A DNA stretch of 43,065 bases from NCBI GenBank assembly GCA_025451035.1, contig JANWLE010000039.1:1-43065 (forward strand), given 5' to 3'. The DNA is from Solirubrobacteraceae bacterium. GTDB taxonomy: Bacteria; Actinomycetota; Thermoleophilia; Solirubrobacterales; Solirubrobacteraceae. Positions 1,826 through 40,335 of this stretch are shown piece after piece. A model generated the notes under the pieces. The model did no database searches. It worked only from the letters and a program-made list of their open reading frames with translations, and had not been told where the DNA came from. The position numbers and the translations under genes were made by a program. Each line of letters begins with the position of its first letter. Position 1 is the first letter of the stretch.

Positions 1826-2173
1826 ATGCGGTTCAGCGCAAAGGGACGCATGGCATTGGTGGCATTCGCGGCGACACTCGCCGTCGCGATTCCCGCGACC
1901 GCGTTCGGCGGTGGGAGGAGCGCCTCCACCCACACGGTTACGCTCAAGAACATCGCCTTTCATCCCGCCAACCTGTCGATCAAACGCGGCGATAGCGTCA
2001 CCTGGCAGTGGCGTGACGGCTCCACGCGGCACAACGTCACAGGTTCCGGCTTCAAATCGCGGACCATGTCGCGGGGGTCGTTCACGGTGCGCTTCACGCG
2101 CAAAGGCACGTTCAACTACCACTGCACGATCCACGTCTCGCTGGGCATGAAGGGCAAGATCGTCGTCCACTGA
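1826..2173 (+). CDS. Secreted cupredoxin (plastocyanin/azurin-like blue copper protein)
   Basis: This 115-residue exported protein has a signal peptide (residues 1-28, ending ATAFG) and one cupredoxin domain. The type 1 copper ligands are recognisable as His69 (TRHNVTG), then Cys100, His103 and Met108 in HCTIHVSLGM, in correct order and spacing. Family members shuttle electrons or bind copper outside the membrane. The ATG at 1826 is preceded by AAGGAG at 1814-1819 with six bases between. It lies 90 bp after the anti-sigma gene on the same strand and may be co-transcribed with it or be a target of that sigma factor. A strong hairpin terminator follows at 2226-2267. Confidence 0.9.
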   Translation: MRFSAKGRMALVAFAATLAVAIPATAFGGGRSASTHTVTLKNIAFHPANLSIKRGDSVTWQWRDGSTRHNVTGSGFKSRTMSRGSFTVRFTRKGTFNYHCTIHVSLGMKGKIVVH

Positions 2174-2225
2174 ACCGACGTGCGGAGAACCCCGGCCGAC
2201 GGGGTAGCTCGAGAATAGAGTCGAG

Positions 2226-2267
2226 AATAGAGGGGTCTGTCCCGCACGCGGGACGGACCCCTCTATT
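2226..2267. terminator. Strong bidirectional hairpin terminator
   Basis: An almost perfect inverted repeat of about 20 bp per arm surrounds a minimal loop at 2246-2247 (AATAGAGGGGTC... pairing with ...GACCCCTCTATT). It sits between two genes that converge, the cupredoxin (+) and the lipoprotein (-). The 12-mer TCGAGAATAGAG occurs twice in tandem at 2209-2220 and 2221-2232, the second copy running into the stem. Confidence 0.85.
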
Positions 2268-2287
2268 TCGACCATCTCTCTTCCGAG

Positions 2288-2827
2288 CTAGGAGAGGTCT
2301 ACCTTGGCGCCCTTGGCGTTGAGCACGTACCACCCGCCGCCGAAGGCGTTCACGCCCTCGCCGTAGGAGTCGCCCGCGTCTTTGTCCTTCATGAAGTAGT
2401 ACAGCGGGTGGCCCCTGTAGGTGAGCTGCTTGGTGCCATCCGGGCGGGTGATCACGCCGAGGTCGCTTGCGAGCGCGCCGCCCATCGCGTGTGGAGCGCC
2501 GCTAGTGGTGACCGGCGGCCATGCCTGCGCGCACGCGCCCTGGCACGCCGACTGGCCCTGCTTGTCGGCCTCGAACAGGTAGACGGTCAGCTTCTTCGGC
2601 CCGGCGTCGAGGATCTCGCCCAGCTTGCCGGCACGCTTGGTGGCGACAGCGACCGCGGGCTGGCCGGTGCTCGCGGCTGTCTGCCCGCCGCTGGAGGCGT
2701 TGACCGAGGCGCCGGGGGCTGGACTGGAGGTGCTCGAACTGCTCGATTTGCCGCTTGAGCCGCATCCGGCGAAGGCGAGCGCCGCGGCGCAACCGACGCC
2801 GAGCACGCGAACATCTGCTCTGATCAT
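2288..2827 (-). CDS. Lipoprotein with Yx[FWY]xxD repeats (COG4315-like)
   Basis: This 179-residue lipoprotein has a lipobox (LAFAGC, Cys near residue 22), a Ser/Gly/Ala-rich linker to about residue 60, and then a domain with two copies of the motif Y-x-[FWY]-x-x-D (YLFEAD and YYFMKD). It also has a Cys pair in QSACQGACAQAWPPV. These are the hallmarks of the predicted lipoproteins with conserved Yx(FWY)xxD motif, whose biochemical role is not settled. The ATG at 2827 has an AGGAG box (plus-strand 2834-2838) six bases away. It lies 77 bp downstream of folK on the same strand but probably has its own signals. With the cupredoxin and ECF pair it forms a group of envelope genes. Confidence 0.85.
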   Translation of the reverse strand: MIRADVRVLGVGCAAALAFAGCGSSGKSSSSSTSSPAPGASVNASSGGQTAASTGQPAVAVATKRAGKLGEILDAGPKKLTVYLFEADKQGQSACQGACAQAWPPVTTSGAPHAMGGALASDLGVITRPDGTKQLTYRGHPLYYFMKDKDAGDSYGEGVNAFGGGWYVLNAKGAKVDLS

Positions 2828-2904
2828 TGGGGTCTCCTGTGAACGTGGGTTTAGGCCTTCGAAAAGCTCAAGACCCCCACTGCGGGTGATCCTTCCCGGT
2901 CGCT

Positions 2905-3408
2905 CTAGACCTCGAGCGGCGGGCCGGCCCAGCGGACGCCTTCGCTCACAGGCAGCCGCGCAAGCGCGTCGGCGAGGATGCTGCCATCCGCCAGCGTCAT
3001 CTGAAAGTCGAGCTCGAGCGCTGGGATCAGCACGAAGCGCCGCTGCAAGAGCTGCTCGTGCGGAATCGAAATCCGCTCGTGCGAGAACTGCAGATCACCG
3101 AGCGCGAGGATGTCGATGTCGATCACCCGCGGGCCGTGCCTGACGCCGTCGCGGCGTCCCAGGGCGTGCTCTATTCCCTTCGCCACTTCCAGCAGCTGCA
3201 GCGGGTCAAGACCCGTACTCACTCGCAGGCAAACGTTCAAAAAGCTCGGTTGGTCTGTCACCTCGCCGACCGGGTCGGTGTCATACACCGAGGATGAGGC
3301 GAGCACCTCGATGCCGCGCTCGGCGAGCGCCCCGACGGCGTCTTGCAGGTGAGCGCGCCGCTCACCGACGTTCGAGCCCAGACCGAGTAGGCCGACGCGA
3401 TCGCTCAT
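2905..3408 (-). CDS. folK: 2-amino-4-hydroxy-6-hydroxymethyldihydropteridine pyrophosphokinase (HPPK)
   Basis: FolK transfers pyrophosphate from ATP to 6-hydroxymethyl-dihydropterin, the step before dihydropteroate synthase in folate synthesis. The 167-residue length is typical. Visible signatures are LGLGSNVGER at the N-terminus, the pterin-loop region VYDTDPVGEVTDQPSFLN, and HGPRVIDIDILALG near residues 91-104, which contains the two Mg-binding aspartates. It follows folB by 10 bp, and the two are surely co-transcribed. The gene order folP-folB-folK is the standard actinobacterial one. No unusual features were seen, and the call is firm. Confidence 0.96.
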   Translation of the reverse strand: MSDRVGLLGLGSNVGERRAHLQDAVGALAERGIEVLASSSVYDTDPVGEVTDQPSFLNVCLRVSTGLDPLQLLEVAKGIEHALGRRDGVRHGPRVIDIDILALGDLQFSHERISIPHEQLLQRRFVLIPALELDFQMTLADGSILADALARLPVSEGVRWAGPPLEV

Positions 3409-3418
3409 CCGCGCGCCG

Positions 3419-3958
3419 CTATTCGGACGCCTCGCGCCAGATCTCGACCGAGACTTCCTCGACGGCGAGCGGGATCGGCGGCTCGGGCTTGGCGGCCTTG
3501 ACCCACACGCCCTCTAGCTCGTAGTCGACCAGCAGGCGGTCGGCGATCGTCGAGCACAGCCGCTCGAGCGTCTTGTGAGAGCGCTGCTGGCAAACCAGCG
3601 CCACGAGCTGGCACACCTCGGCGTAGTCGATTGTGTCCTCCAGCCGGTCGGTCACGGTGGCGTCAGACTCGCCGATGTCCAGGCGTATGTCGAGCACCAG
3701 CCGCTGGCCGATCTCGCGCTCCGCCTCGCTGACACCGTGATGGGTGTACAGCGATAGGCCAGTGATCTCGATCGTTACCGACTCACGCGACTCGTCGTGC
3801 TCGCCGAGATCGTCTTCTTCGAGCTCGTGCTCTTCCTGGCGCTCGCCGCCATCGCCTTGGGGATCCTCGCGCTCACCCCCGCCGTGCTGGTGGCCGCCGA
3901 AGTCGAAGTGCTCGCCGGACCCCTGATCCTCCGGCCGCTCGGGCTGCTCGCTGTCCAT
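3419..3958 (-). CDS. folB: Dihydroneopterin aldolase with long acidic N-terminal extension
   Basis: Residues 60-179 are a complete FolB domain. They include the GLSLYTHHGVSEAEREIGQ segment with the conserved Glu, IDYAEV, and the KPEPPIP motif near the C-terminus that carries the catalytic Lys. FolB cleaves 7,8-dihydroneopterin to 6-hydroxymethyl-dihydropterin and glycolaldehyde. The first 59 residues are unusual: they are extremely rich in Asp, Glu, Gly and His and look disordered. Typical FolB proteins are about 120 residues long. No alternative start codon lies between the ATG and the domain, so the extension seems real. The ATG overlaps the folP stop (TGATG), so translation is coupled. The function is sure and the extension unexplained. 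Confidence 0.94.
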   Translation of the reverse strand: MDSEQPERPEDQGSGEHFDFGGHQHGGGEREDPQGDGGERQEEHELEEDDLGEHDESRESVTIEITGLSLYTHHGVSEAEREIGQRLVLDIRLDIGESDATVTDRLEDTIDYAEVCQLVALVCQQRSHKTLERLCSTIADRLLVDYELEGVWVKAAKPEPPIPLAVEEVSVEIWREASE

Positions 3959-4797
3959 CAGGCGCTCAACGTAGCAGCCGCCACGGCGAGCGCGTCGCGA
4001 ACCGGGGTGACGTCGTGCACGCGGAAGACGCGAGCGCCTCGCTCGAGCGCGATCACGCAGGTCGCGATCGTGCCCGCGAGGCGTTCCTCCGGCGGGGGCT
4101 GGCTGGCGTGCGGGGCGGCCTCGGCGAGCGTGCGGGCGATGAAGCTCTTGCGTGAGGGGCCAATCAGGATCGGCCTGCCGAGCGCGCAGAGCTCATCCAG
4201 GCGGCGTAGCAGTTCAAGGTTCTGGGCGACGGTCTTGCCGAAGCCGATACCGGGATCAAGCATGATGCGCTGCTCGTCGATGCCGCTTTCGACAGCGTGG
4301 CGCAGACGCTCCTCCAGAAACGCCTTGACGTCGTCGACGACGTCTGAGTAGCGTGGGTCGGCCTGCATCGTGCGGGGCTCGCCCTGCATGTGCATCAGAC
4401 AGCACTCCGCCCCGGCCGAGGCGATGACCCCGGCCATCGCGGGGTCTGAGCGCAGCGCGCTGACGTCGTTGACGAGGCTCGCTCCGGCGGTGAGCGCGGC
4501 GCGGGCGACCGCCGCCTTGCGTGTGTCGATCGAGATGCGCGGGGCCTCGAGCGCGGCGCCGAGAGCGTCGACCACCCCAATGACGCGCTCAAGCTCCTGC
4601 TCCAGAGAGACCGGCTCAGAGCCCGGACGTGTCGATTCCCCACCGATGTCGAGGATGTCAGCGCCCTGCGCGACGAGCTGCAGGCCGTGTGCGACCGCGG
4701 CGTCCCGGTCGAGGAACAGCCCGCCGTCTGAGAACGAGTCTGGGGTGACGTTGATGATCCCCATCACCTGAAAGCTGGGCGCCATATCGAAAGTCAT
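3958..4797 (-). CDS. folP: Dihydropteroate synthase
   Basis: FolP condenses 6-hydroxymethyl-dihydropterin pyrophosphate with para-aminobenzoate. It is a TIM barrel and the sulfonamide target. MGIINVTPDSFSDGG lies near the N-terminus, followed by DILDIGGESTRPGSE and, near the C-terminus, IGPSRKSF. I chose ATG 4797 (279 aa) because GGAGAG (plus-strand 4805-4810) lies seven bases before it. A longer frame reaching 4974 would overlap ftsH and add unconserved Arg/Ser-rich sequence. It lies 85 bp after ftsH and overlaps folB by one base. In many actinobacteria folE lies between ftsH and folP, but it is missing here. Confidence 0.96.
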   Translation of the reverse strand: MTFDMAPSFQVMGIINVTPDSFSDGGLFLDRDAAVAHGLQLVAQGADILDIGGESTRPGSEPVSLEQELERVIGVVDALGAALEAPRISIDTRKAAVARAALTAGASLVNDVSALRSDPAMAGVIASAGAECCLMHMQGEPRTMQADPRYSDVVDDVKAFLEERLRHAVESGIDEQRIMLDPGIGFGKTVAQNLELLRRLDELCALGRPILIGPSRKSFIARTLAEAAPHASQPPPEERLAGTIATCVIALERGARVFRVHDVTPVRDALAVAAATLSA

Positions 4798-31904: not shown

Positions 31905-33062
31905 TCAGAGCAGGCGCTCGTACACGCGGTAGCGCTTGACGATCCGCCCACTCATCGCCTCCATGCCGCGGTTCATGGCGGTGTTCGTCTCGAGGATCCA
32001 GCCCATCTCCCCGCCCTTCTGCGGGCGCGCTTCGGCGGCGTTGAAATGCTCGACATACAGCTTCGCAGCAACCCCGGTGTGCTGATACTGCGGCTTTACG
32101 CCAAGAAAGCCGACGCGCACGCGATCCATGATGCGACCCTTGCGCAGGAAGTGCCACCAGCCGAAGGGCAGCACTTTGCCTTTCATCTTTTCGAGCACCT
32201 GGTTGATGTCGGGGATCGTGATCGCCATGCCGACAACCTCCCCGTCGGATTCGCGCTCGGCGATCATGAACCAGTGCTTGTCGAACACCAGGTGCAAATC
32301 CCAGGCGTAGGCGTCGAGGTCCTTCTTGGAGTACGGCACGAAACCCCAGTTGCGCGACCACGCGGAGTTGTAGACCTCGGCGAAGGCGTCCATGTCTTTG
32401 CGCAGCTGACGACGGCGCATCGGCCGTACGCGGATCCCGTGCTCGCTTGAGACCTTCTCGGCCAGGTCGAACATGACCGGCAGCACCTTCTCCCGGTTGT
32501 GCACCTCGACGTTCCACATCAACAGGTCCATCGCCTTGGCCATCCCCGCCTCCTCCATGCGCTGCTGGTAGTAGGGGGGGTGCCAGGGCTGCCGGATCAT
32601 CGGGCGCAGGTCGAAGCCGTCGATCAGGATGCCGCTCTCGTCGTTCATCGAGAAGTCGGCGGGGCCGACCATCCGCTCGCAGCCGCGCTGCTTGAGCCAG
32701 CCTTCGGCGGCGGCGAGCAGGCTTTCCAGCGCCTCGATGTCGTCCTCGAACTCCAAAAAGCCGAACCAGCCCCATTTGGAGTCGTGGTACTCGTTGTAGG
32801 CGTGGTCGATCTGCGCACTGACGCGGCCCACCACGCGACCGCGGCGGCGGGCGAGGAAGTACGCCGCTTCGCCGTGGCTGAAATAGGCGTTGATGCGACG
32901 GTTCAAGAACAGGCGGCGCTCGATCTTCAGCGGCGGTACCCACACCGGGTGCTGGGCGTGCAGCCGGAAGGGCAGGTTGATGAACTCTTTGAGCCCACGC
33001 CCGCGGGAGACCTCCTGCACTTCGATGCTGCTCGAGGAAACGTCGCTCAGCTGGACGCTCAT
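31905..33062 (-). CDS. GNAT-like acyltransferase of the YghO/BcerS-like family
   Basis: A 385-residue protein that from memory matches the YghO/BcerS-like family. Characteristic stretches are FINLPFRLHAQHPVWVPPLK (27-46), HGEAAYFLARRRGRVVGRVS, a GPADFSMNDESGILIDGF block and HPPYYQQRMEEAGMAKAMDL. A GNAT-like C-terminal half (about 215-380) has VGFLGVKPQYQHTGVAAKLY as the acyl-CoA-binding part. One family member, the bacterial ceramide synthase of Caulobacter, N-acylates a sphingoid base; others have no known substrate. The divergent neighbour is a serine-palmitoyltransferase-like enzyme, so an N-acyl long-chain base is a reasonable product guess. A TAGGGT box lies eight bases upstream of the ATG. 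Confidence 0.82.
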   Translation of the reverse strand: MSVQLSDVSSSSIEVQEVSRGRGLKEFINLPFRLHAQHPVWVPPLKIERRLFLNRRINAYFSHGEAAYFLARRRGRVVGRVSAQIDHAYNEYHDSKWGWFGFLEFEDDIEALESLLAAAEGWLKQRGCERMVGPADFSMNDESGILIDGFDLRPMIRQPWHPPYYQQRMEEAGMAKAMDLLMWNVEVHNREKVLPVMFDLAEKVSSEHGIRVRPMRRRQLRKDMDAFAEVYNSAWSRNWGFVPYSKKDLDAYAWDLHLVFDKHWFMIAERESDGEVVGMAITIPDINQVLEKMKGKVLPFGWWHFLRKGRIMDRVRVGFLGVKPQYQHTGVAAKLYVEHFNAAEARPQKGGEMGWILETNTAMNRGMEAMSGRIVKRYRVYERLL

Positions 33063-33070
33063 GGTCGCGC

Positions 33071-33076
33071 ACCCTA
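33071..33076 (-). promoter_or_regulatory. Putative -10 element (TAGGGT)
   Basis: On the minus strand TAGGGT lies eight bases before ATG 33062. It sits in the 115-bp divergent gap before the alpha-oxoamine synthase, where TACGAT (33131-33136) may serve the other direction. Confidence 0.3.
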
Positions 33077-33177
33077 TACCGCTCAGCGGAATCGTGCGTC
33101 CCCCAAAGGCGGGTCAGGGTGGCCGCTCGTTACGATGCAGCCAACAGCCCCGCTCTGCGCGCGGAACTGTTTTTCCG

Positions 33178-34461
33178 ATGCCCACGTCGATCGATCTTTT
33201 CGCGAAGGTCTCAGGCCACGAGCGGGCCGAGATGCTGCGCGCCGCCCGCGAAGCGGACCTGCTGCCGTTCTTCAGGACGGTCGAGTCGCCCGCGATGCCG
33301 GTCGTGGAGATGGAAGGCGCGCCGCGGATCATGCTCGCCTCCAACAACTACCTGGGGCTGACCGGCGATGAGCGTGTGATGAGGGGCGCCGAGGATGCGC
33401 TCCACCGCTACGGCACGGGGCTGACCGGCTCGCGCCTGATGAACGGGACGACGCCGCTTCATCTGCAGCTCGAGGCCGAGCTCGCGGACTGGATGGGCAC
33501 CGATGACGCGCTGGTGTTCACGACCGGCCATCAGGCGAACGTTGGCACGCTCGGCACGCTGCTGGACGCGAAAGACACGGTGATCGTCGACTCCGCTGAC
33601 CACGCCTCGATCCTCGACGGGGTGCAGCTCTCGAAAGCGAAGATGCGGCCGTTCCGGCACAGCCGCCTGGACAAGCTCGAGCGTGCGCTGCAGCGCGCGG
33701 CGCTCGACGGCGGCGGCGTGCTGGTGGTCGTCGACGGGGTCTTTTCGATGGAGGGGGACGTCGCGCCGCTGGTGGATGTCGTCGAGCTGTGCGAGCGCCA
33801 CGGGGCGCGGCTGATGGTCGACGAGGCGCACGGTGCGGGCGTGCTCGGCGCCCGCGGCGCTGGCGCCTGCGAGCTGCTCGGCGTCGAGGAGCGCGTCGAT
33901 TTGCGCATGGGCACGTTCTCCAAGTCGCTGGCCGCCTGCGGCGGTTTCATCGCCGGCTCCGCCGAGGTCATCGACTACCTGCGCTTCTCCAGCCGCGCCT
34001 TCTTGTTCACCGCCTCGGGCGTGCCGGCCGCGCTCGGCGCGGCGCTCGCGGCGCTGCGCATCATCCGCTCCGAGGAGGGCCCGGCGCTGTTGGCGAAAGC
34101 GCTGGAGAACGCGAGCTACCTGCGCGAGGGCCTGACCAGCCTCGGCTTTCTGACGTTGGCGGGCGAGCCGGTGCGCGTCGCCGGGCAGGACGCTCCGCGG
34201 TCGGTCATCACGCCGATCGTGCCGGTCGTCGTCGGCGACGACTGGAAGGCGGGGCTGTTGTGGCGTGCGCTGTATGACCGCGGCGTGTTCACGAACTGCG
34301 CGCTTCACCCTGCGGTGCCGCCGGGCGGGGCGTTGCTGCGCACGAGCGTTATGGCCACCCATGACCGCGCGACACTCGACCGTGCACTGGACGCGTTCGC
34401 TCACGTCAAGCGCGAGTTCGAGGCCGAGCACGGCCCGCTGCCCGCTCCCGGCGAGCACTAG
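33178..34461 (+). CDS. Alpha-oxoamine synthase, serine-palmitoyltransferase-like
   Basis: A 427-residue PLP enzyme of the alpha-oxoamine synthase group, which joins an amino acid and an acyl-CoA with loss of CO2. Key features are SNNYLGL (55-61), YGTGLTGSRLMNGTTPLHLQ (78-97), His142 in SADHAS (PLP stacking), DEAHGAGVLG (215-224) and the Schiff-base Lys249 in GTFSKSLAACGGFIAG. The TFSKS context and the GTG..GSR..NGT block are more like serine palmitoyltransferase than BioF (8-amino-7-oxononanoate synthase) or glycine C-acetyltransferase (Kbl), where TLGKA/TLGKAL is usual. ATG 33178 gives a normal N-terminus; the longer open frame overlaps the divergent promoter. The divergent neighbour is a BcerS-like acyltransferase. 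Confidence 0.85.
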   Translation: MPTSIDLFAKVSGHERAEMLRAAREADLLPFFRTVESPAMPVVEMEGAPRIMLASNNYLGLTGDERVMRGAEDALHRYGTGLTGSRLMNGTTPLHLQLEAELADWMGTDDALVFTTGHQANVGTLGTLLDAKDTVIVDSADHASILDGVQLSKAKMRPFRHSRLDKLERALQRAALDGGGVLVVVDGVFSMEGDVAPLVDVVELCERHGARLMVDEAHGAGVLGARGAGACELLGVEERVDLRMGTFSKSLAACGGFIAGSAEVIDYLRFSSRAFLFTASGVPAALGAALAALRIIRSEEGPALLAKALENASYLREGLTSLGFLTLAGEPVRVAGQDAPRSVITPIVPVVVGDDWKAGLLWRALYDRGVFTNCALHPAVPPGGALLRTSVMATHDRATLDRALDAFAHVKREFEAEHGPLPAPGEH

Positions 34462-35200: not shown

Positions 35201-35910
35201 CCGCCGCGCGCTCGGCCACGCGGAGGCGCTTTGGCGGCGCCTGTGTGGCTCGACGCGGGCGCGTGCTGGGAGGCGGCGCTCCCGGCGAGTAGTTCGCTCG
35301 CGTGCATGCGCAGCTGTGCCAGCGGCGGGGTGAGCGCCGGCGGGACGCTCTGCAGCGCCCCGCCGGGGTAGATGAAGTCGACCTGGGGGCAGCTCGCGAG
35401 CCTGTAGAGGCCGGCGAGTGCGCCATCGCGGTCGTAGCCGACCGGGATCGTGAGGCGGCGCTTGGCCACAAGCGCCCGCAGCGAGGCGCGCTGCCCCCTT
35501 ATGGCGACGGCGGCGAAACGCACGGACGGCATCGACCGAGCAAGCGCCTGCAGCTCGTCGAGGATCTTCGTGCAGTCGCCGCCATCGACGAACAGCGCGA
35601 GCACCACCGGATGGTGTTCGTAGAGTTCGCAGATGTTGAGGATCTGCGCGCCACGGACCGTGCACGCCGGCTTGGCGCCGGCCTGGCCTTCGTGTGAATG
35701 GGTCGCGATATTGGCGTCACCTTCGAGGCTTGCGGCCGCCAGGGGCACCGCGAACGGCGGCGCGTGCTGCCCGGGCCGCAGGCCGCTGAAGCCGCTTGTT
35801 TTGGCCAATAGCGCGCCGAGCGTCAGCGCCACGAATGCGATCAGCCCGAGCAGACTGACGTAGTGGCGGTAGCGGGGTGCGTCTTTGGACTGTGACTCAG
35901 GCTGGCTCAT
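35197..35910 (-). CDS. Membrane-anchored thioredoxin-fold protein
   Basis: A 237-residue protein with an N-terminal membrane anchor (about 17-36, YVSLLGLIAFVALTLGALL) and an extracytoplasmic domain that reads like the AhpC/TlpA thioredoxin fold: GQHAPPFAVPLA, then VVLALFVDGGDCTKILDEL (about 102-120). In place of CxxC there is a single Cys (DCTKI), so classical disulfide exchange is not possible. Two further cysteines lie just upstream (PACTV and NICEL). The C-terminal 40 residues are low complexity. Its ATG at 35910 is inside the last codons of the RND gene (14-base overlap), so it is made with it. The role is unknown; a peroxiredoxin-like or redox-sensing role is possible. Confidence 0.72.
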   Translation of the reverse strand: MSQPESQSKDAPRYRHYVSLLGLIAFVALTLGALLAKTSGFSGLRPGQHAPPFAVPLAAASLEGDANIATHSHEGQAGAKPACTVRGAQILNICELYEHHPVVLALFVDGGDCTKILDELQALARSMPSVRFAAVAIRGQRASLRALVAKRRLTIPVGYDRDGALAGLYRLASCPQVDFIYPGGALQSVPPALTPPLAQLRMHASELLAGSAASQHAPASSHTGAAKAPPRGRARGG

Positions 35911-38602
35911 GGCGCGCCCTGCCGCGCAGGCGAAGGCGAGCGATCTGCGCCCCGCGGCGCTCGCGCTCGGCGAACACCAGTGCCGAGGGCAGCAGCAGCA
36001 GCACGCCCAGCAAGGAAACGCTCAGGTCGATCAGTGTGACCAGGCCAAAGTCGCGCAGCATCGTGATGTTCGAGAGCACAAGCACGCCGAAGCCGGCGAT
36101 CGCCGTCACACCCGAGGCGGCGACGGCGGCGCCCGTACGGCGGTAGCTGCGCTCGAGCGCCTGTGCGAGATCGTGGCCCGCGCTGCGCTCCTGGCGATGA
36201 CGCTCGCACAGAAGCACGCTGAACTCGGTCGAGATCGCGGTCACGAGCGCCGCGAGCGTGACCGACATCGGGTTCAGCGGCACCCGTGTCAGGAACAGCA
36301 CGAGCGCGGACCAGCCGGTCGCGAAGACGACGGGCACGATCGGCACGAGCGCTCTGCGGCGGTCCCCACCGAAGGCGACCAGCAGCACCAGCGCGACGGC
36401 CGCGATCCCAGCCAGGCCCATCACCAGCCGGCGAGTGTTGGAGGCGACCGCGGCGGCTGATTGCGCGGCCAGCACAGGCAGTCCGACGAACTGAGCGCTG
36501 ATGCCCTTCGGCGGGTGCAGGTTCGCGCGCAGCCGTTCGATCAGCCGCTGCTGCTCCTGGAGGGACATCAGGCGGATCCCGAAGGCGAGCGTCGCGACCC
36601 GCCGGTCGGGGCTGATCACGTCCTGGGAGAAATAGGGTGGTATCAGCTTCAGCAGTTCGTTCACTTCGGCCTGGGTCGGCGTGGGCCCGCTGGCGGGACT
36701 GTGCTTGCCCGCGGCGCCCGCCGGCGTGCCCTGACTTACCTGGAACAGGTCGGGGAGCGAGAAGGCGGGGCAAAGCTGCGCCTGGCCGCAGCCATTGGAG
36801 TCCGAGTAGTGCAGTTGCGCGAGCACCGATCGCTCATAGGACGCCATCCATCTGATCACCGAGGCGTTGGTCAGGTCCGCGCCGCTGACCATCAGGTCGA
36901 TCTGGCCGCCGACGCCGGAGTCACGCTCGAGCGTTTTGAGGTTTTCCAGCGAGGAGGTGTTCTGCGGCACGAGCTTGGCGATGTCCGTCTGCACCGGCGT
37001 CTGGGTGCCGAGCCCCCAGCCGGCGAGCGCAAGTACAAACCCGACCAGCAGCACGCGGCCTGGGTTTCGCATGGCGGCGCGCAGCGCTGTTTGTGAGACG
37101 AGGCGGTTGAGCGGGTTCTCGAGCAAGAGCTCGCGTGCCCCGCGCCAGGCGGCGCCCAGGCGCGCGTCAAGGTTCAAAGCTACACGTGAGCCCGAGCGCC
37201 GCGAGCTCACGCCCGCTGGCCTGGTGGCGGTGAGCGCGAGCACTGCCGAGCCGATGCCAAAGGCGCATATGAGCGCGATCGCGATCCCCGCGACCAGCAG
37301 CAGCCCGAAGCCGCGCACCATCGGCACCGGGCTGAGCAGGAGCACCAGCAGCGCCGCGGCGCTCGCGATCCCGGCGGTGCCGATGACGCTCGCCGCGCTC
37401 CTTGCCGCCCGGCGTACCGCCGCGGCGGCCTGCAGGCCCCCCTCGTCCGCAGCCTCCTGCACCCGAGACTGGAATTGGATCGCGTAGTCGACGGCGAGGC
37501 CGACGAGGACTGGCAGCACCGCGACCGAGGCGACGGTCAGCGAAGCTCCCGAGAGCGACAGCGCACCGAAGCTGATCGCCGTCGCGCAGAGCGCGATCGC
37601 GAGCGGCAAAAGCCGCGGCAGCACTCTGAATATCAGCGCCAGCGTGAGTGCCATCACGATCAGCACGGCGATCGCCAGCAGCGTCAGCGAGTCGGTGATC
37701 GAGCTCGTCAGATCCGCCACGATCACGGGCTCGCCGGTCAGCAGATAGGACTCGCCGTGCGCGAGGTGCCACTGGGGCATCGCGATCGCCTCGCGGATGA
37801 GCCCGATCGTGCGCCGGCGCTGCTCTTCTGAGAGGCCGGCCTTCAGGCGCACCGAGACGAGCGCCGCTTCACGGTTGGGGAACAGGTAGGCGAACCGTTT
37901 CTTGGGGGTACCGGCGCGCTTGGTCCTGTCAAACACGAGCGCTTCGACGAAGTTCGGGTTCTGCAGGCTCGGCCGCGAGGTGATCCCGTAGCGCAGGGCG
38001 AGCACGGTGAGCCCTTCCGCGAACCGCTGCAGCGTCAGCTTGCTCGCCTCCTTGCCGAGCGCCGCGGCTTCAGCCGCGCTGCGGTGCTGGGCCAGAGCCG
38101 CGACCGAGACTGCGTGTTCGGCCTGCTTGGCTTGCCTGCGCGCCTGCGCTTCGCCGCTCGCGAGCTGGCTTGAGATCTCTTCGGCGGCCTCGTTGACGAA
38201 CGTACCGGGCCCGAAGACGACCTTCACCGTCCGCTCGCGCGCGAGCGCCGCGCAGGGACCCGAGCGCCCGCCCTCCTTGCCGAGCGCCGAGGCCGGAACG
38301 TTGCCGGACAAGCAGCCCTCCAACCCGAGCAGCCGGTCGATGTCGGAGCTCAGCACGAGCTTGCGCAGATCGCCCTTGACGAGCAGCTCGATCGGCTCTT
38401 CGCCGAAGCTCCGGTAGAAGGTCTGTGTGGCGCGGTAGGTCCCGCTCGTGCGAGCGACGAAGGTGTCGCTCGCCGCGCTCGGGTGAAGCCGCAGCGCCAG
38501 GGCGCCGCCGGCGAGCGCGAGCACCACGGCGCCCACCAGCAGGCTGCGGGGCCTGCGTGTCGCGAGGCTCGCAAGCGCGGCGAGCAGGCGGGTGGGGCTC
38601 AT
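35897..38602 (-). CDS. RND-type transporter, HAE3/MmpL-like lipid exporter
   Basis: A 901-residue RND-superfamily membrane protein. Helix 1 is at about 20-38, a large external loop follows (40-300), then helices 2-6 (about 303-460) with the family motif GLAVDYAIQF (368-377). The second half repeats the plan, with a helix near 515, a loop to about 715, and a last helix bundle to about 890. This is the HAE3 group, which includes hopanoid transporter HpnN and is close to the mycobacterial MmpL proteins; it likely moves hydrophobic molecules. It follows the Mla-type permease and ATPase genes by 81 bp. The substrate is unknown. Confidence 0.85.
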   Translation of the reverse strand: MSPTRLLAALASLATRRPRSLLVGAVVLALAGGALALRLHPSAASDTFVARTSGTYRATQTFYRSFGEEPIELLVKGDLRKLVLSSDIDRLLGLEGCLSGNVPASALGKEGGRSGPCAALARERTVKVVFGPGTFVNEAAEEISSQLASGEAQARRQAKQAEHAVSVAALAQHRSAAEAAALGKEASKLTLQRFAEGLTVLALRYGITSRPSLQNPNFVEALVFDRTKRAGTPKKRFAYLFPNREAALVSVRLKAGLSEEQRRRTIGLIREAIAMPQWHLAHGESYLLTGEPVIVADLTSSITDSLTLLAIAVLIVMALTLALIFRVLPRLLPLAIALCATAISFGALSLSGASLTVASVAVLPVLVGLAVDYAIQFQSRVQEAADEGGLQAAAAVRRAARSAASVIGTAGIASAAALLVLLLSPVPMVRGFGLLLVAGIAIALICAFGIGSAVLALTATRPAGVSSRRSGSRVALNLDARLGAAWRGARELLLENPLNRLVSQTALRAAMRNPGRVLLVGFVLALAGWGLGTQTPVQTDIAKLVPQNTSSLENLKTLERDSGVGGQIDLMVSGADLTNASVIRWMASYERSVLAQLHYSDSNGCGQAQLCPAFSLPDLFQVSQGTPAGAAGKHSPASGPTPTQAEVNELLKLIPPYFSQDVISPDRRVATLAFGIRLMSLQEQQRLIERLRANLHPPKGISAQFVGLPVLAAQSAAAVASNTRRLVMGLAGIAAVALVLLVAFGGDRRRALVPIVPVVFATGWSALVLFLTRVPLNPMSVTLAALVTAISTEFSVLLCERHRQERSAGHDLAQALERSYRRTGAAVAASGVTAIAGFGVLVLSNITMLRDFGLVTLIDLSVSLLGVLLLLPSALVFAERERRGAQIARLRLRGRARHEPA

Positions 38603-38683
38603 CGCGCCGGGGAGATCATGGTGGACGTCAAGTCACCGCGGGAGGCGACGTGAGCGCCGTTTGCTCGGGCCGCGCACCGGGCG

Positions 38684-39532
38684 CTAATCCATTCCCAGCG
38701 GCCCGTGCGATTCTCCCGAGAGGAACTGGCGCACGAAGGGGTTCTCCGACTCGAACAGCTCGGCTGAGGGGCCGGACTGGACGATCTGTCCGCGCCACAG
38801 TACAGAGATGTGCTCGGCGATTCGCCGGGCGCTCATGATGTCGTGGGTGATCACGACGTATGTGCCGCCGTTCTCGGCGTGGACTTCCTTGATCAGCTCG
38901 CACAACAGCGCGGTGCGGACCGGGTCGATGCCGGAGTCGGGCTCATCGAACAGGACGATCTCGGGGTCGAGCACGAGCGAGCGCGCGAAGCCGGCGCGCT
39001 TGCGCATCCCGCCGGAGAGCTGGTTGGGCATCTTCTGGTTGGCGTTGGCGAGACCGACCTCGCGCAGGCGGCGGTTCACGATGTCCGCGATCTCGTCCTC
39101 GCCCTTCTCGGTGTGCTGGCGCAGCGGGAAGGCGACGTTGTCGTACAGGTTCAGCGAGCCGAACAGCGCGCCGTCCTGGAACAGCACGCCGAACTTCTTG
39201 CGCAGCTCGAACAGCTCGTCGTCGGCCAGCGACGGGATCGAGTGACCGGCGACGACGACGTCGCCGCTATCGGGGTAAAGCAGCCCGACGATGTGCTTGA
39301 TGCAGACCGACTTGCCGGTGCCCGATGGGCCGATGATCATCGAGATCTTGCCCTTCGGCAGACCCATGTTCAGGCCACGCAGCACGCGGTTACGCCCGAA
39401 CGCCTTGTGCACGTCGATGAACTCGATCACGTCCTCGGCGCCGGTCGGTCGCCGCGCACCGGTGTGGTAGCGAAACTCGTCCCCCTCGGCGTGAGGCTGC
39501 TGGCCCTGCGGATCCTGCTCGCTCGCCGCCAT
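38684..39532 (-). CDS. MlaF/Mkl-type ABC ATPase
   Basis: A 282-residue ABC ATPase for MlaE/YrbE permeases. Walker A is GPSGTGKS (68-75), the signature LSGGMRKR (172-179) and Walker B IVLFDEP (192-198); the SGIDPVR block after Walker B and the F-x-D-G-A-L Q-loop region (FQDGALFGSL) are typical of the Mkl/MlaF group. ATG 39532 was chosen (the longer frame runs into the permease gene), and it starts two bases after the permease stop. In mycobacteria this ATPase (Mkl/MceG) energises Mce lipid importers. It shows no sign of decay. Confidence 0.92.
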   Translation of the reverse strand: MAASEQDPQGQQPHAEGDEFRYHTGARRPTGAEDVIEFIDVHKAFGRNRVLRGLNMGLPKGKISMIIGPSGTGKSVCIKHIVGLLYPDSGDVVVAGHSIPSLADDELFELRKKFGVLFQDGALFGSLNLYDNVAFPLRQHTEKGEDEIADIVNRRLREVGLANANQKMPNQLSGGMRKRAGFARSLVLDPEIVLFDEPDSGIDPVRTALLCELIKEVHAENGGTYVVITHDIMSARRIAEHISVLWRGQIVQSGPSAELFESENPFVRQFLSGESHGPLGMD

Positions 39533-39534
39533 GC

Positions 39535-40335
39535 TCACCCGCCGATGGGGGCGCGTGGGTTGCCGCCCCAGAAGACCTGGGTGCCGAGCATGCCGATCAA
39601 GGTCACCAACACGAGGTTGAGCACCATCGACTTCGCCGTCGCGGTCCCCACCCCCACCGGGCCACCCGAGGCGTTGTAGCCGTAATAGCAGCCGACGAGC
39701 ACGATCGCGGTCGCCATGAACATCCCCTTGATCAGGCTGAACAACAGATCGGGGGCGTTCTGGAACTGCCAGAAGATCAGCAGATAGCCGCCGGAGGAGA
39801 CGAACCCGAGCTGCTTCACGACCGCTATGTATGAGGCTAGGTAGGCGACGCCGATCGCCCCCAGGTACATGAACGGCAGCACGACCCAGGCGGCCAGCAG
39901 GCGCGTGGCGCACAGGAACGTCACCGAGTCCAGCCCCATCACCTCGAGCGCGTCGATCTCCTCCGAGATCCGCATCGCGCCGAGCTCAGCGACGATGCCG
40001 GTACCGACCTTCGCCGACATCATGTACCCGAACGCGTACGGGATCGCCTCGCGCAGGTTGCACCACGCCGCGAACACGCCGGCGTACGCGGTGGTGCCTG
40101 TCGCCTCGTTGAAATACCCCGCCTCGATGCCGCACGTGCCGAGACCGGTGATGAACACCAGTCCCCAGATGACGAGCGTCGAGCCGACGATCAGGATCCC
40201 AGCCTGGCGCAGCGTCTCACCAAAGAATTTCAGTACCCGCAGCCCGTAGACGTCGCCGGCGACGTTGGTGACGAAGCGACCGATCTCACCGGTCGCCGCG
40301 AACCATTCGCGCGGCAGCGCAAGCAGTTCGTTCAT
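39535..40335 (-). CDS. MlaE/YrbE-family permease (second of pair)
   Basis: A 266-residue ABC permease of the MlaE/YrbE family. It carries the usual AYGFGYMMSAKVGTG-like segment (here AFGYMMSAKVGTGIVAELGA at about 101-120) and MRISEEIDALEVMGLDSV, the hallmark coupling region. The sequence has about five membrane helices. It follows the other permease gene by 25 bp and precedes the ATPase gene by two. Mce operons have two such permeases with MCE-domain proteins after them; here the MCE genes are missing. It probably forms the membrane channel with the other permease and MlaF. Confidence 0.93.
   Translation of the reverse strand: MNELLALPREWFAATGEIGRFVTNVAGDVYGLRVLKFFGETLRQAGILIVGSTLVIWGLVFITGLGTCGIEAGYFNEATGTTAYAGVFAAWCNLREAIPYAFGYMMSAKVGTGIVAELGAMRISEEIDALEVMGLDSVTFLCATRLLAAWVVLPFMYLGAIGVAYLASYIAVVKQLGFVSSGGYLLIFWQFQNAPDLLFSLIKGMFMATAIVLVGCYYGYNASGGPVGVGTATAKSMVLNLVLVTLIGMLGTQVFWGGNPRAPIGG

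Follow-up and report, generated by a model that had tools for sequence, protein, structure and literature searches.

We analyzed a 43,065-nucleotide stretch of DNA from a Solirubrobacteraceae bacterium (assembly GCA_025451035.1, contig JANWLE010000039.1). This stretch, hereafter the window, is the whole of contig C39 in an assembly (G000) of 2.87 Mb, 122 contigs and 94% completeness. Two genes lie back to back on its opposite strands. One encodes an alpha-oxoamine synthase (AOS) of the serine palmitoyltransferase (SPT) type, and the other encodes an acyltransferase of the YghO/bacterial ceramide synthase (bCerS) family. Judging from their sequences, these two genes probably encode steps one and two of a ceramide-type pathway, which would be a core trait of the order Solirubrobacterales. 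In Caulobacter and the E. coli BL21 cluster, the ceramide pathway consists of Spt, bCerS and the reductase CerR (PMC9386255 and PMC11087976, accessible parts), and genes of BL21 itself may accept 3-oxosphinganine (PMC9386255). The features of the locus are as follows.

33178..34461, + strand: SPT-like AOS, 427 aa, pyridoxal phosphate (PLP) lysine Lys249 (assigned by NCBIfam, PDB, alignment and trees)
31905..33062, - strand: tandem-GNAT acyltransferase of the YghO/bCerS type, 385 aa, representing one YghO subtype among those of the order (assigned by Pfam, homology and predicted fold)
33063..33177, no strand: divergent intergenic region of 115 bp, presumed home of both promoters (a short divergent gap is present in 83 of 99 order genomes)

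Families of the synthase and the acyltransferase

A first-pass annotation, made from the DNA letters alone, had described an AOS. Its reading frame runs uninterrupted from the ATG at 33178 to the stop at 34461. The two quoted motifs were also found in it: the lysine motif GTFSKSLAACGGFIAG is located at 33910-33957 and includes Lys249, and the GTG..GSR..NGT block is represented by GSRLMNGT at 33427-33450. The top NCBIfam matches were two SPT models (372 and 364 bits, best E 2.9e-111), and a third SPT model scored 284 bits. CqsA and 5-aminolevulinate synthase (ALAS) were not the best family, as the ALAS model scored 221 bits and the autoinducer-synthase model 203 bits against 372 for SPT. The best PDB match was the SPT of Sphingobacterium (4.9e-86). 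Counterparts in the same genus, for which 23 genomes were searched, were 70-84% identical. As SPTs were the best matches in both NCBIfam and PDB and the same-genus counterparts are this similar, chance is excluded.

The AOS was aligned to the Sphingobacterium SPT (3a2b). H142, D215, H218, K249 and R388 were all kept, a set that we take to be the PLP- and substrate-site pattern. We then scored 15 SPT-signature columns, in which one letter occupies at least 90% of 48 operon-side SPT rows and is nearly absent from nine Kbl/BioF rows. The window AOS has the SPT letter at 9 of the 15, and the majority of 65 order rows has it at 11. At three columns typical of Kbl/BioF, the window AOS matches one.

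The SPTs in our phylogenetic trees were operon-linked (E. coli-type, Bacteroides and others); SPTs with solved structures, CqsA and ALAS stand outside these trees, and the 47-row tree and the approximately unbiased (AU) tests also leave out L243, L241 and E. coli BioF. In a quick tree of 76 rows, the order's AOSs formed one clade within the SPT side, with a support of 97 against Kbl plus BioF. AOSs and SPTs were split from Kbl and BioF at 100/97 with 50 rows and at 100/99 with 47 rows. The AU tests rejected AOS with Kbl (p 0.00096) and AOS with BioF (p 0.017). The first-pass annotation had named a clustering with Kbl or BioF as fatal to its reading; no such grouping was found, and the trees and AU tests placed the AOS with SPTs.

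An identity of the AOS as Kbl (glycine C-acetyltransferase) or BioF is thus extremely improbable, and we rejected it. The Kbl and BioF models did come close, with 345 and 337 bits, to the 372 bits of the best SPT model (a difference of up to about 10%). The trees and AU tests argue against this assignment, and so does the BioF of G000, a separate gene (461 bits over a cut-off of 426) clustered with bioB, bioD and bioA. Genome G029 likewise has three copies: the AOS, a BioF accompanied by bio genes, and a third one that groups with Kbl. No tdh match was seen beside this third copy. A further AOS in a same-genus genome (G003, L310 420-1568; tree row L241_420) branched between Kbl/BioF and SPT.

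The first-pass annotation had also reported a full YghO/BcerS-like GNAT gene on the other strand, 115 bp away. This gene is intact and encodes 385 aa (31905-33062, - strand). No NCBIfam model matched its product at E<=1e-5, the only Pfam cut-off passed was that of Acetyltransf_1, and a PDB sequence search returned no relative (best E 1.2). The structure predicted from a 60-row alignment is a tandem GNAT (mean predicted local distance difference test score, pLDDT, 92.7). Its top solved structures were the tandem-GNAT entries 2wpw, 7q3a and 5kf1, with a template-modeling (TM) score of about 0.6 and 9-13% identity. Full-length homology of 33-38% was observed to SPT-linked copies of E. coli, Pseudomonas, Rubrobacter, Streptomyces and Nonomuraea, a comparison made without Caulobacter bCerS.

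Additional YghO copies were observed. G000 has a second one on contig C111 (3546-4697, L069), 52% identical and away from the AOS. The C111-type subtype adjoins the AOS in G007, G019 and G021, and G212 has two tandem YghO genes beside the AOS. Two Myxococcota loci have two YghO genes around CerR. These observations (loci L309, L179 and L206, besides L069) hint at two acylation steps or at hidden paralogue swaps.

In a quick YghO tree, the order formed a single clade (100); adjoining it (89) were G097 and G194, which belong to another family of the class. In the 50-row AOS tree, G097 also adjoined the order (99/97, flagged as a long branch). The two trees therefore agree on G097 beside the order.

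Distribution and gene neighborhoods of the pair

To follow the pair in relatives, we searched 41 genomes (G000 and 40 relatives) and 249 genomes of the class. With 20 order genomes common to both sets, 99 order genomes were covered. Among the matches listed, both genes were present in 99 of 99 and no order genome was seen without a match, a count that depends on how the tables are ordered, the misses listed beginning with more distant kin. The two genes were divergent and at most 264 bp apart in 83 genomes, and divergent but 2.8-3.8 kb apart in four more. Conservation in relatives, on which the first-pass annotation had made its proposal depend, was therefore observed. The class sample also includes 171 genomes from outside the order (249 minus 78); YghO was found in 9 of these and an AOS at E<=1e-80 in 6. 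In the phylum sample, 34 of 296 genomes had YghO, nine of them order members. Some draft copies were imperfect: stops occurred within the match at four YghO and five AOS places, and YghO was in two pieces in G005, as was the AOS in G006.

Neighborhoods were then compared for the best 80 of at least 577 relatives, comprising 66 non-order and 14 order loci; the Solirubrobacterales relatives with names were Conexibacter, Svornostia, Patulibacter, and Thermoleophilaceae or Solirubrobacteraceae metagenome-assembled genomes. Because of kinship among the loci, these counts are not independent. At a distance of up to 5 kb from YghO, 40 of the 66 non-order loci had an SPT-side AOS (a side assigned by the 76-row tree), 34 had CerR and 33 had both. 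In the 29 non-order loci where 5 kb or more is available in both directions, the corresponding values were 20, 19 and 19. The 14 order loci had 12 AOSs and no CerR, hence none with both; the eight with room gave 8, 0 and 0. SPT-YghO(-CerR) neighborhoods were present in many phyla, other actinobacteria included. Plasmid records of Rubrobacter radiotolerans and Streptomyces NBC_01001 carry SPT-YghO-CerR runs, and the same run was found in G294, G319 and G409 of one other actinobacterial family, G319 being 100% identical to the Rubrobacter genes.

Orientation was divergent in 12 of 12 order loci. In the non-order loci, the SPT was upstream on the same strand in 34 of 40, downstream in 6 of 40 and divergent in 0 of 40. 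We rejected the divergent layout as a hallmark of the order, because E. coli, P. veronii and Nonomuraea plasmid records also have YghO divergent from the SPT.

Several other neighborhoods were recorded. ABC-2-type transporter genes, labeled from reading the translations, separate the divergent AOS from YghO in L077 (= G035; 1917-4512) and L168 (5201-7913), and they are a possible lipid exporter. In G097 (L243 1412-7163), an NAD-epimerase comes directly after the AOS, then a convergent YghO and a GT4 glycosyltransferase; an LPG_synthase_TM protein is encoded nearby. This is possibly a cluster for a glycosylated ceramide-like lipid elsewhere in the class. At the Nonomuraea locus (L135 6325-13196), an SPT in two frames is divergent from YghO, and a CerR-like epimerase, a PAP2_3 protein and a putative MMPL-like frame are also present.

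In the window itself, no sigma-70-like site was found in the 115-bp intergenic region 33063..33177. Beside the pair, 35897-40335 contains an MMPL transporter, an ABC ATPase and an MlaE-type permease, which we label a Mce-like set. The MMPL gene is the remaining feature:

35897..38602, - strand: MMPL-family transporter, neighbor of the pair (close to it in 16 of the 27 order loci compared, a set with many short loci)

A link between this transporter and the AOS-YghO pair is conceivable.

Proposed pathway and its alternatives

The AOS would join an amino acid to a long-chain acyl-CoA or acyl-ACP (acyl carrier protein), releasing CO2 and yielding a 3-oxo long-chain base. Residue conservation points to L-serine as the most likely amino acid. 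Cytoplasmic N-acylation of this base by YghO/bCerS would follow and produce an oxidized (3-oxo) ceramide. We infer the substrates, the product, the step order and any export. The first-pass suggestion that the organism may make an N-acylated long-chain amine gained support from the SPT-side position in the trees, the order-wide pair and the SPT-YghO neighborhoods elsewhere.

A third step by CerR was sought with 6-row and 30-row CerR alignments over G000 and 40 relatives. On CerRs outside the model, those of G294 and G409, the 30-row model scored 333 and 319 bits. In G000 the best score was 128 bits, with no match at 1e-40. A match at 1e-40 was obtained in 27 of the 41 genomes, some order genomes reaching up to 228 bits (G024). 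These strong-looking matches were rejected, as they fell outside the CerR clade. When 39 operon CerRs were placed in a tree together with 31 order candidates, the CerRs lay on one side of a branch (SH-like approximate likelihood ratio test, SH-aLRT, 92; quick tree), and 0 of 31 order rows lay inside. When seven order candidates were scanned with NCBIfam, six resembled HpnA, OleD or other short-chain dehydrogenases/reductases (SDRs), all below cut-off. The candidate on C10 of G000, taken from the epimerase search, matched no NCBIfam model at 1e-20. The best full-length CerR match in G000 (C17) looked HpnA-like but scored below the HpnA cut-off (259 of 368). No CerR match above 169 bits was seen in G061, G072, G083 or G111 either, class members whose canonical SPT is not close to YghO.

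The epimerase following the AOS of G097 was searched for as well; it had 29-40% matches in 31 of 41 genomes and no clear orthologue in every order genome, and these matches gave no assignable reductase. An unrelated reductase is quite possible, since the weaker SDRs were not all placed in the tree. The first-pass annotation had found no ketoreductase in the window and had suggested looking for a CerR-like one elsewhere. The former holds for CerR-like proteins, as the five G000 matches at E<=1e-25 all lie on contigs other than C39. For the latter, no orthologue was found. The lipid would then stay 3-oxo or be reduced by an unrelated enzyme, because no CerR orthologue was found.

Several observations weigh against the ceramide-type pathway. 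No CerR orthologue was seen among the candidates examined in G000 or the 40 relatives. The AOS scored under every curated NCBIfam SPT cut-off (372 of 640, 364 of 500 and 284 of 670). This is no strong argument against SPT, because the SPTs of the complete Rubrobacter and Streptomyces operons also fail the first model (444 and 377 bits); the cut-offs seem to be lineage-bound. Four signature columns deviate in most of the order, and the near-invariant SPT positions 82, 105 and 287 are altered in nearly all rows of the AOS clade. The 31 SPTs excluded the AOS clade at 90/85 with 50 rows and at 70/28 with 47 rows; the AOS may thus be either sister to the SPTs or nested within them. The pair was far apart on one contig in 5 and on different contigs in 7 of the 99 order genomes. 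Moreover, a whole block, ABC/SBP (substrate-binding protein)-AlkA-YghO-AOS-mIHF-Rdx-MMPL, is syntenic across the order.

The separate, deep lineage of the AOS and its changed columns 82 and 287 are what a different substrate might leave behind. The enzyme might use alanine, glycine or another amino acid, giving 1-deoxyceramide-like or other N-acyl aminoketone lipids. Spt can take alanine, and lysine has been suggested (PMC11334938, accessible part); the AOS homologues in PDB also include a cysteate-using enzyme with solved structures (28eh). We nevertheless consider another amino acid unlikely. The presumed PLP- and substrate-site pattern is kept relative to the Sphingobacterium SPT, and the majority of the SPT-signature columns is retained.

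The synteny bears on another alternative, in which the AOS makes a small aminoketone, YghO acylates something else, and their co-location reflects a conserved block. Over 27 order loci, many short and some with second YghO copies, the block members were YghO (27), AOS (23), SBP (19), mIHF-like (18), AlkA-like (17), Rdx-like (17) and MMPL (16). AlkA-like, mIHF-like and Rdx-like are our own labels, as no Pfam model matched at 1e-5. Since the synteny extends to MMPL, adjacency within the order is partly inherited with the block; it is weak evidence of a link, and we rejected it as proof of one. Unlinked genes would also fit 26 of the 66 non-order loci, where the YghO-type copy has no SPT close by (some of these loci are on short contigs), and the solitary C111 copy of G000. 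Against this, other phyla combine SPT and YghO in the upstream and downstream layouts counted above, both genes are kept in the 12 genomes where they are far apart or on different contigs (contig breaks being possible for seven), and the AOS and YghO trees are largely congruent. Unlinked genes are therefore quite improbable.

The ceramide-type pathway can also be extended to a specific product. On the Caulobacter model (PMC11087976, accessible part), Spt and bCerS types without CerR lead one to expect an N-acyl-3-oxo long-chain base, followed by a stop or by another reductase. It is a tentative and rather doubtful proposal that the pathway ends after step two in these Gram-positive bacteria and that the whole order makes such a CerR-less oxidized ceramide, or a derivative, as a core membrane constituent.

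The soil genera of Solirubrobacterales include Solirubrobacter, besides Conexibacter and Patulibacter, and 2-hydroxy acids are common in bacterial sphingolipids. In Solirubrobacter, placed in this order in PMC10722151 also, the major fatty acids include iso-C16:0 2-OH, and the lipids reported comprise an aminophospholipid and a phospholipid, both unidentified (PMC10722151, accessible part), which we count in favor of a ceramide-type pathway. To be set with the points against it, the polar-lipid description in the accessible part of that source names no sphingolipid, and "sphingo" and "ceramide" occur 0 times in its main text.

Comparison with known systems

In Caulobacter, Spt and bCerS are cytoplasmic and CerR is periplasmic, and a cerR deletion accumulates oxidized ceramide (PMC11087976, accessible part). 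The order of steps in bacterial ceramide synthesis is disputed, another group favoring a eukaryote-like order (same source and part). If an entire order has a fixed ceramide-type pathway, the known sphingolipid makers would gain a whole Gram-positive clade, and soil ceramides would have a bacterial source. A naturally CerR-less lineage would also bear on the dispute over acylation before or after reduction, as laid out in the accessible part of PMC11087976.

The idea of actinobacterial sphingolipids is already in print, as a three-gene phylogeny in an earlier paper includes several Gram-positive Actinobacteria (PMC12134224, accessible part). The order-wide fixation of the pair without CerR seems to be new. 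No sphingolipid paper on Solirubrobacterales was found among the titles and abstract starts of the open-licence literature.

Also among the closest systems is the Spt-like "clade B", which widens the Spt-like diversity past the known Spt, some members having bCerS and CerR nearby (PMC11334938, accessible part). The main text of that paper, as far as accessible, does not contain the terms "actinobacteri-" or "actinomycetota".

As in the Spt-bCerS-CerR systems of Caulobacter and E. coli, genes for an SPT-side AOS and a full-length YghO/bCerS-family acyltransferase occur together in the window. A divergent YghO is a further shared trait, since the E. coli and P. veronii records have it opposite to the run that contains the SPT. 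The differences are that the pair in the window is directly back to back, that no CerR orthologue was found and that the AOS forms a separate lineage. The runs of Rubrobacter, Streptomyces NBC_01001 and Nonomuraea share with the window actinobacterial hosts and the same two families, and the SPT and YghO of Nonomuraea are also divergent. Unlike in the window, CerR adjoins YghO in all three, and the Rubrobacter and Streptomyces SPTs lie outside the order's AOS branch in the 50-row tree, which does not include the Nonomuraea SPT.

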